Assembly (NCBI RefSeq): GCF_005845035.1
Contig: NZ_SPFO01000002.1
Span: forward strand, 115,695 to 179,694
Reading direction: 5' to 3'
DNA: 64,000 nucleotides
DNA from: Collinsella aerofaciens
Lineage (GTDB): Bacteria; Actinomycetota; Coriobacteriia; Coriobacteriales; Coriobacteriaceae
Under the pieces are notes generated by a model. It was given only the letters and a program-made list of their open reading frames with translations. It was not told the DNA's origin and searched no databases. The position numbers and the translations under genes were made by a program. Positions 23,311-25,581 of this stretch are shown piece by piece. Position 1 is the stretch's first letter, and each line of letters starts with the position of its first letter.

Positions 23311-23562
23311 TTAACGCATTGTTCCGTCCGACTTACCAAATGCTGCGGCGTACTCGTCATCATCCATCCAATCGATGATGTCGCCGGGCTTGCAATGAAG
23401 CGCCTCGCACATTGCTTGAAGTGTAGAAAAGCGGATCCCCTTGAGTCTTCCCGTTTTAATTCGAGACAGATTAACAGGCGATATTCCAATGATTTCGGCA
23501 AGTTCCTGCGACGAGATTTTACGGTCCGCCATCACGCGGTCAAGACGCATAACAATCGGCAC
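23311..23562 (-). CDS. XRE-family regulator (YozG-like)
   Basis: An 83-residue Cro/C1-type helix-turn-helix protein: ISSQELAEIIGISPVNLSRI is the HTH, followed by FSTLQAMCEALHCKPGDII, the second conserved block. Small regulators of this type are very often paired with DUF2975 membrane proteins, as here: it begins 11 bases after the DUF2975 gene. A GTG start with GGGGGTGG is likely; an ATG four codons in is possible. Confidence 0.92.
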   Translation of the reverse strand: MPIVMRLDRVMADRKISSQELAEIIGISPVNLSRIKTGRLKGIRFSTLQAMCEALHCKPGDIIDWMDDDEYAAAFGKSDGTMR

Positions 23563-23573
23563 CGTGCCACCCC

Positions 23574-24062
23574 CTAGAGAATCTCGTCTGCATCTTCCTG
23601 CAATACCCTACCGTATTCAAAGACCCCCGCCAACGCAAAGAAAACGAGTCCGTAAGAAAGCGATTGAAAATCAAACTCGGGAAACACGGGCTCAGCCGTT
23701 CCAAGAACATTGCTGTATGGCAATTGAATCGTCGGCCATATGATGCTGATGACGGCTTTTACCGACATCAGGAGGCCAGCCGCGACCAAAATCCTGGTCT
23801 GCCACTTACCAAAAGGACGACCCTCATGCCTGACTTTCGCCGTCAGAATCGTAAACAGAAGAAACGTTGCAGCGTCGCAAAGCGTGCTAACCATAAACAA
23901 GAGCAGAAATCCGCCGCTCACCGCAGAGATACCCTCGATGAGCAACAGGTTCGCAAGATGAACGAACAACACCACGCAACATAGCGCTTGAACCGCCAGG
24001 GCGATACAGAAGATTGTCAGAAAACTCGTCGTCAACCGCAGATGTATATCGCGATCTTTCAT
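23574..24062 (-). CDS. DUF2975 membrane protein
   Basis: A 162-residue protein with four predicted membrane helices (about residues 10-33, 42-66, 88-108, 135-155) and a C-terminal FEYGRVLQEDADEIL, which fits DUF2975. Function unknown; the XRE regulator follows and probably controls both. ATG 24062 is preceded by AAAGGAGGAG, a strong site; the earlier ATGs are not. Codon use is more AT-rich than in rsgA, as in the cassette next to it. Confidence 0.85.
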   Translation of the reverse strand: MKDRDIHLRLTTSFLTIFCIALAVQALCCVVLFVHLANLLLIEGISAVSGGFLLLFMVSTLCDAATFLLFTILTAKVRHEGRPFGKWQTRILVAAGLLMSVKAVISIIWPTIQLPYSNVLGTAEPVFPEFDFQSLSYGLVFFALAGVFEYGRVLQEDADEIL

Positions 24063-24223
24063 TTCTCCTCCTTTTTTCCTTATTTCCCTGCGTTCATTGT
24101 ACTTTTCAATCCAACCGCTCTCGCTCAAAACCATTTACCGGCAAATCGATACCGTTCATTTTAAAGAATCTTTATTTAATGTTTTATATAAATTAATTTG
24201 ACTTTATAGAGTTTGGAGGACCC

Positions 24224-24658
24224 ATGAGAAAGCAAACCGTCCTTATCCTTATCTTATCGCTGTCCCTTTTCGCCCTCTTCTCGTCAGTACGAACCAATTC
24301 CGATCCAATCAATATCTCATTGCCCGAATTTCGATCGAAATTAAGCAAAGGCGAATCTTTTATCGTGCAAATTGAGCTGGAGGGCTGCCCGGCCTGTGAA
24401 GAACTCCGTGCGGCAGAGCGCTCGCTTTCGCCGAGTCTCAAGAACGACATCGAGATCCTCGTTGTCCCTAAGAGCCAAAAGGAAGTTGATAGGGAAACAC
24501 TTAAGGCGCTTCTGCCGTCATTCGAGTTTTATCCTTCAATTTTTGCCATCTCTGAAGGAAAGATAGCGTCCGAGTTCGACCTTTCCACGCTTGATTCGTT
24601 TGAAATGCGTTTCACGGATTGGAGGCTGAATCTGAACAACACAGCAATGTCAAGCTAA
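24224..24658 (+). CDS. Secreted or anchored thioredoxin-fold protein (CPAC)
   Basis: A 144-residue protein with an N-terminal hydrophobic segment (VLILILSLSLFALFSSV) and a thioredoxin-like domain with one CxxC site, EGCPACEEL, near residue 52. The cis-Pro position reads FEFYPSIFAI, as in thioredoxins. It resembles the small thiol proteins encoded with disulfide-containing bacteriocins (PedC-like). GTTTGGAGG precedes the ATG. First gene of a three-gene, lower-GC operon, divergent from the XRE/DUF2975 pair. Confidence 0.78.
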   Translation: MRKQTVLILILSLSLFALFSSVRTNSDPINISLPEFRSKLSKGESFIVQIELEGCPACEELRAAERSLSPSLKNDIEILVVPKSQKEVDRETLKALLPSFEFYPSIFAISEGKIASEFDLSTLDSFEMRFTDWRLNLNNTAMSS

Positions 24659-24675
24659 ATGTCAGGAGGATACAC

Positions 24676-25173
24676 ATGCTACGCAACGTTCCCGTAAGCC
24701 GTAAGTCATTCATCGCAAGCGCAGTTGCGCTTTGCTCAATTGCCATTTCACCAAAGCAATCTAAGGCGCAACCTCTTGAAGTAGAGTTCCCTTCTGCCGA
24801 AGAGTACATTGAAGCTGTCAATGAGTCCGGCACAGGATGGACGACATACGCACTAGATGAAAACGGAGATGTCCAAATTATCGATCGATTCCAGACCCTG
24901 TCTTTGGATGATTTAGCAACTGCCACACGCGGCGCTAAAGAATGGATCGTCAAAATTGCCATTTTTATTGGAAAAGAACTCATCGGCTATGTAACGGGGC
25001 TTGTAATCGACGGACTGATTAAGAAAATCATAAGCAAAACCGGAGGTACTTGGCCTGAGTATGCAGCAAAGCAACTCCTTGGACACCCCGTACCCGCAGG
25101 CAACGCGTACCGTCTACCTTGCAGCGTCTATCCCCCCAACTCCGGAGAATACATTCGTTGTATAAATAGTTAG
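24676..25173 (+). CDS. Secreted protein with late cysteine pair, possible bacteriocin-like product
   Basis: A 165-residue protein with a signal peptide of ~32 residues (VSRKSFIASAVALCSIAIS, end near SKAQ; the SRKSF could be read as a weak Tat motif). The acidic N-terminal part of the mature protein is followed by an amphipathic stretch (IVKIAIFIGKELIGYVTGLV, then DGLIKKIISKTGG) and a C-terminal tail with two Cys separated by 13 residues. No family is recognised. AGGAGG is six bases before ATG 24676. The flanking thiol protein and small membrane protein suggest a matured secreted peptide with an immunity partner, but this is inference. Confidence 0.7.
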   Translation: MLRNVPVSRKSFIASAVALCSIAISPKQSKAQPLEVEFPSAEEYIEAVNESGTGWTTYALDENGDVQIIDRFQTLSLDDLATATRGAKEWIVKIAIFIGKELIGYVTGLVIDGLIKKIISKTGGTWPEYAAKQLLGHPVPAGNAYRLPCSVYPPNSGEYIRCINS

Positions 25174-25182
25174 GATACGGCT

Positions 25183-25512
25183 ATGTTGCCAGTCATCATT
25201 GCCCCCGTAATTGGTGTATGGGGCATCCAGTATTTCCTCAACAAGAAGTGGCTCTGGGGCATTGGGTGCATAGCGATAACATTAATATGCTATTTCCTTA
25301 GCCTCATTGTCAAAGCATGCTGGCCGAGCGCCATCTCTTTTGGAATTGCTCTTCTCAGCTCGGTCCAGCTATATGGAAGCAAAAAGGGTTTGTCCTTCTT
25401 TAATGCCCTGATATCGGCTCCGCTACCTCTGCAAATCTACTGGGGAATTATGGCCGTCATCGTTCTCTTTATGCCTCAAATCCCCTTCAGCGACGTTCCC
25501 GGCTTCTCCTAA
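25183..25512 (+). CDS. Small multi-pass membrane protein, possible immunity protein
   Basis: A 109-residue protein with about four hydrophobic segments (LPVIIAPVIGVWGIQYFL, IGCIAITLICYFLSLIV, SAISFGIALLSSVQLYG, IYWGIMAVIVLFM) and few charges. It starts nine bases after the secreted-protein gene, so the two are co-translated. Small hydrophobic proteins in this position are often immunity factors of bacteriocin operons; nothing in the sequence proves it. Confidence 0.7.
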   Translation: MLPVIIAPVIGVWGIQYFLNKKWLWGIGCIAITLICYFLSLIVKACWPSAISFGIALLSSVQLYGSKKGLSFFNALISAPLPLQIYWGIMAVIVLFMPQIPFSDVPGFS

Positions 25513-25581
25513 CGCGTCGCCGATTCAACCCCATACAATCCAGTTCACAAAAAGAGTCGGTCGAGCAAATGCTCTAAAAAA

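Follow-up and report, generated by a model that had tools for sequence, protein, structure and literature searches.

Bacteriocin systems resembling the Collinsella locus

In Bacillus, the SDP toxin system (SdpC, SdpI, SdpR) combines an exported toxin precursor with a small membrane immunity protein and a repressor, and bacteriocins of the EntV, A-M57 and corynicin family adopt a helical fold known as 'clasping palms'. EntV is made as an exported precursor of 170 aa, and its activity needs one disulfide and the thioredoxin-fold protein DsbA (PMC6606811, PMC9562342); a thioredoxin-fold DsbA can thus be indispensable to a bacteriocin that is exported and has two cysteines (PMC6606811). Dysgalacticin is an exported, plasmid-borne bacteriocin of S. 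dysgalactiae that is accompanied by a membrane-associated immunity protein, DysI (PMC8308785).

We have examined three genes, A, B, and C, in a 64,000-nucleotide window of the Collinsella aerofaciens genome, whose arrangement the first-pass annotation had likened to a disulfide-containing bacteriocin with maturation and immunity genes. The B product is similar in size to the exported precursors of the 'modular' bacteriocins EntV/enterococcin V583 (EF1097), corynicin JK, and streptococcin A-M57, but the cysteines of EntV (C106 and C167) are 61 residues apart and those of B only 13, entV and dsbA are not neighbours whereas A adjoins B, and the B proteins of Coriobacteriia have Tat-like signals as opposed to the Sec-type signals of the EntV group. 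B is not detectably related to EntV, as a comparison of B profiles with all PDB sequences returned no EntV chain (7ROA, the solved member) up to an E value of 10; no corynicin-like ORF was recognised on C. jeikeium plasmid pKW4. Dysgalacticin is likened to B by a B homologue in S. canis that is also carried on a small plasmid, although it is longer (220 aa as compared to 165 aa), the two being compared by description and not by sequence. The PedC/BrcD maturation disulfide isomerases offer a parallel to A, as thioredoxin-fold thiol proteins encoded beside a disulfide-containing bacteriocin, but the A proteins score only 11.6–12.9 bits against a cut-off of 120. The locus also shares with SDP the combination of an exported toxin candidate, a small membrane protein, and a repressor-type gene; membership was rejected, with no SdpC or SdpI family match of B, C, or the neighbouring DUF2975-like protein in Pfam or NCBIfam. 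The best reading, by analogy, is that the cassette would work like the PedC- or DsbA-assisted bacteriocins, yet it is not a detectable member of any known family.

A low-GC islet inserted between rsgA and a P-type ATPase gene

The three genes are part of an islet of approximately 2.2 kb (positions 23315–25545 of the window, edges approximate, with no strand assigned), which is flanked by rsgA and the gene for a P-type ATPase and has a GC content of 47.8%, compared with 60.3% for the whole window. The initial description of a low-GC cassette with AT-rich codons is borne out: A, B, and C have a GC content of 0.47–0.48 and a GC3 of 0.44–0.61, below the flanking rsgA (0.67 and 0.77) and ATPase (0.64 and 0.88) genes. 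The span first given, 24224–25512, correctly delimits A to C, but the actual unit is larger and contains five genes, including an XRE gene and a DUF2975-like gene.

All 45 Collinsella genomes searched contain rsgA, and RsgA is 96–99% identical in 23 of the other genomes, from which we chose 12 for comparison of the site. The islet is absent and the site empty in all 12, and in ten of them the sequence corresponding to window position ~23314 joins that of ~25577 across a few intervening bases, and the flanks match over long stretches on both sides; in one of the 12 (G024) the right flank is broken after 58 matching bases by an IS30-type transposase gene, and in another (G018) the contig ends shortly past the junction. 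Because the relatives run directly from one coordinate to the other, the low-GC stretch can be recognised as an insertion on more than an impression of composition, and the islet is a real, horizontally acquired cassette. The stop codon of the XRE gene lies at its left edge, and at its right edge is a partial copy of a terminator-like repeat that the relatives also have, as might result from recombination at this repeat; there is no integrase or transposase within the islet, and no target duplication was recognised. We considered whether the rsgA-ATPase gap is a toxin hotspot and rejected this, since its sole other occupant seen is the transposase gene of G024 (named by eye; L064, 4727–5989).

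Gene B and its relatives

Gene B (24676–25173, + strand) codes for a 165 aa candidate bacteriocin. The three ORFs have the coordinates first assigned to them and are co-directional and tightly spaced, with gaps of 17 nt between A and B and 9 nt between B and C, and with AGGAGG ahead of B. The product was described at the outset as secreted with two late cysteines 13 residues apart, and these are C149 and C162 (C149-x12-C162), with a PPxS loop between them near the C-terminus. Inspected by eye, the N-terminus is signal-like, with SRKSFI as a Tat-like motif and an SKA↓Q-like site for cleavage; Tat-like motifs in B relatives, also identified by eye, are TRREVL, SRRAFI, and SRREML. B contains a glycine-spaced hydrophobic core, and its homologues have in common GK-x3-GY, V-x-DG, and a TG-[K/Q/E]-SG-like turn, followed by the C-terminal cysteine pair. 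As the first-pass annotation had surmised, none of the three products has an above-cut-off match among the Pfam, NCBIfam, PHROG, and PADLOC families; B has no match in any of them, and the observation that had been named as evidence against a toxin, that B is a known housekeeping domain, was not made in Pfam or NCBIfam. The structural model of B has a pLDDT of 49, too poor for a fold search to carry meaning.

B is found in four of 100 relatives searched (own genome counted), and a three-row profile matches strongly in six of 397 genomes of the order: the genome studied here (G000), Candidatus Collinsella stercoripullorum (G013), Olsenella sp. An188 (G072), Collinsella sp. AK_207A (G021), and two further genomes (G217 and G219). 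The G021 copy is a remnant in which only the C-terminal part is kept, and the G219 ORF as listed is without a signal peptide. A 147-aa homologue is encoded by pSC77-2, a 5.5-kb plasmid of Streptococcus canis (E value 2.8e-12 for a profile built without it and a nominal 100,000 sequences). No relative was found among viral contigs, the phage collection contains no relative of the S. canis homologue, and a phylum-wide sample yielded no further member.

B could instead be exported for adhesion, host interaction, or cell-cell signalling, with A as its folding helper and C as an anchoring or processing partner. LuxR-type membrane regulators do lie beside B in G013 and G072 (L005, 7195–8817), as expected of environment-responsive exported proteins generally. 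However, a homologue on a 5.5-kb plasmid together with a tiny membrane ORF, the patchy distribution, and the divergent membrane partners make up a toxin-immunity pattern, and we consider such other roles unlikely.

Gene A, a predicted thioredoxin-fold protein found only with B

Gene A (24224–24658, + strand) codes for a 144 aa candidate disulfide maturase with a hydrophobic N-terminus (an anchor or a signal) and a CPAC motif at C55/C58. The first-pass suggestion of a thiol-disulfide protein agrees with its AlphaFold2 model, which has a thioredoxin fold (pLDDT 81.8) and matches 42 PDB entries with E values of 0.001 or better; thioredoxin and PDI domains are at the top, and the matches include 1zma, a bacteriocin transport accessory protein. 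The active-site motifs across the three A proteins are CPAC and CIYC, and A is predicted from its model to be a thioredoxin-fold thiol-disulfide protein with a CxxC motif, even though its match to the Pfam Thioredoxin family is below the cut-off. The top bacteriocin-related NCBIfam match of all three is TIGR01295 (PedC/BrcD); at 12.5, 12.9, and 11.6 bits against a curated cut-off of 120 bits, membership was rejected.

The A family is present in three of the 397 Coriobacteriales genomes (G000, G013, and G072), all of them among the six that carry B, and these are exactly the genomes with an intact B of this subtype. A adjoins B in all three, lying upstream of it in the genome studied here and downstream in the other two. 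By a hand estimate that ignores phylogeny, the chance of three random genomes all falling among the six with B is ~2e-6. It could be argued that A serves the cell as a general redox protein outside the cytoplasm and adjoins B incidentally, as the modelled thioredoxin fold appears genuine; but A is absent from 394 of the 397 genomes, was never found without B, and shares an insert with B and C, so that we regard this as highly improbable and already disfavoured. The occurrence of the genes separately in other genomes had been named as an argument against a system, and for the most part this was not observed: no A without B is seen in the order, but B is found without a dedicated thioredoxin in G217, G219, and the S. 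canis plasmid, and C is lineage-specific. In G021, a different, degraded PedC_BrcD-like thioredoxin fragment (E value 3.3e-7) lies ~2.1 kb from the B remnant.

The host genome encodes TatC, and it contains no match to VKOR, DsbB, or DsbD-TM models that do match in control genomes; a thiol protein of its own beside B makes sense in such a host. How A would be re-oxidised without DsbB or VKOR is not accounted for by a bacteriocin role of B, and we count this against it.

Gene C, the divergent gene pair, and the question of immunity

Gene C (25183–25512, + strand) codes for 109 aa and is a candidate immunity gene by virtue of its position behind B. It had been described as a four-helix small membrane protein, and it is a small membrane protein, but simple hydropathy gives three clear transmembrane segments, not four. 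No relatives were found besides the genome studied here (one of 396 genomes). Every intact locus has a small membrane ORF behind B or the B-thioredoxin pair, with sizes of 115 aa in Olsenella, 74 aa in G217, 82 aa in G219, 37 aa in Candidatus Collinsella stercoripullorum, and 27 aa in S. canis. The products of 37 and 27 aa resemble one another in spite of coming from different phyla, with a score reached by one of 2000 shuffles; there is no significant similarity among the remaining small membrane ORFs, nor between C and any of them. Small membrane proteins that diverge in sequence while keeping their position look like the products of immunity genes, which suggests an immunity role for C. The 27-aa ORF on pSC77-2 (L041, 7–90) is unannotated, lies directly behind the B homologue, spans the start of the circular record, and has a single transmembrane segment; it may encode a tiny immunity protein.

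On the opposite strand are genes for an 83 aa XRE-type regulator (HTH_26; 23311–23562, − strand; PF13443, E value 1.2e-21) and a 186 aa DUF2975-like membrane protein with several hydrophobic segments (23574–24134, − strand), a probable regulator partner. An XRE/DUF2975 pair beside the cassette had been reported; the divergent pair is indeed present, but inside the same insert, and the DUF2975 label is weak (Pfam E value 0.78, with only weak Pfam matches). We found no inverted repeat in the interval that separates the divergent genes.

The location of this pair raises an alternative in which B is a bacteriocin but the DUF2975-like protein confers immunity with XRE as its regulator, as for SdpI and SdpR, and C acts in export, processing, or the like; in Sdp-type systems the immunity protein is a membrane protein and has a repressor as its partner. 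However, 25 of the 45 Collinsella genomes have a DUF2975-like homologue and almost all of these lack B, no such homologue was found in the B carrier G013, and every intact B locus has its own small membrane ORF; we therefore think this assignment quite improbable, more so than a non-toxin role for B. The same observations suggest that the pair is regulatory, and having been acquired in the one insertion it probably regulates expression.

A candidate disulfide-stabilised bacteriocin with a proposed maturase of its own

The reading that we favor, and think reasonably likely, is that the islet encodes an exported, disulfide-stabilised bacteriocin of a new family, with A as a dedicated maturase and C as a membrane immunity protein. 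Its basis is the export-type N-terminus recognised by eye, the modelled thioredoxin fold, the conserved cysteine pair, the joint insertion, and the A-B linkage; killing, membrane action, immunity, oxidation, and regulation are candidate roles. B would be exported, in Coriobacteriia probably through the Tat pathway, and lose its signal peptide; A, on the outer side of the membrane, would form or proofread the C149–C162 disulfide and so close the C-terminal PPxS loop. Mature B may then use its glycine-spaced hydrophobic core to target related bacteria at their membrane or at a membrane receptor, with C protecting the producer and the XRE/DUF2975-like pair probably regulating expression.

Support for the bacteriocin comes from the joint insertion of five genes, the linkage of A to B, and a thioredoxin-fold model that matches 1zma; from the PedC_BrcD-like fragment near the G021 remnant; from a patchy distribution that extends to a small streptococcal plasmid; and from the membrane ORF in every intact locus, the EntV-DsbA precedent, the presence of TatC, and the absence of VKOR, DsbB, and DsbD-TM matches. 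Against it are the poor structural model of B, the lack of a bacteriocin family match, the two loci and the plasmid that have B but not this thioredoxin, and the lack of C relatives. The bacteriocin, maturation, and immunity scheme proposed at first pass is partly supported and is the best-supported reading, although B also occurs without A, and C is restricted to one lineage.

More tentatively, and with some doubt, we propose a new bacteriocin family that extends from Coriobacteriia, where Tat would export it, to a streptococcal plasmid; a dedicated, outward-facing thioredoxin-fold protein would oxidise the C-terminal loop in hosts without DsbB or VKOR, and immunity would reside in tiny, interchangeable membrane proteins. 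A literature search at the level of titles and abstracts revealed no described Collinsella bacteriocin. If correct, gut Coriobacteriia and a streptococcal plasmid would share a toxin family that offers experiments a clear starting point, extracellular disulfide formation in an anaerobe without DsbB or VKOR would have a test case, and a low-GC islet with genes unnamed by any family library would be accounted for.

Other ORFs are present near B in two further loci. In Olsenella sp. An188 (L006, 7812–8261), an ORF for a secreted 155-aa product with no NCBIfam match adjoins B. The decayed locus of G021 (L007, 1067–3877) contains, in addition to the B remnant and the broken PedC_BrcD-like thioredoxin fragment, an ORF for a secreted 190-aa product and, behind it, a membrane ORF of 107 aa; these two may be a further toxin-immunity pair.
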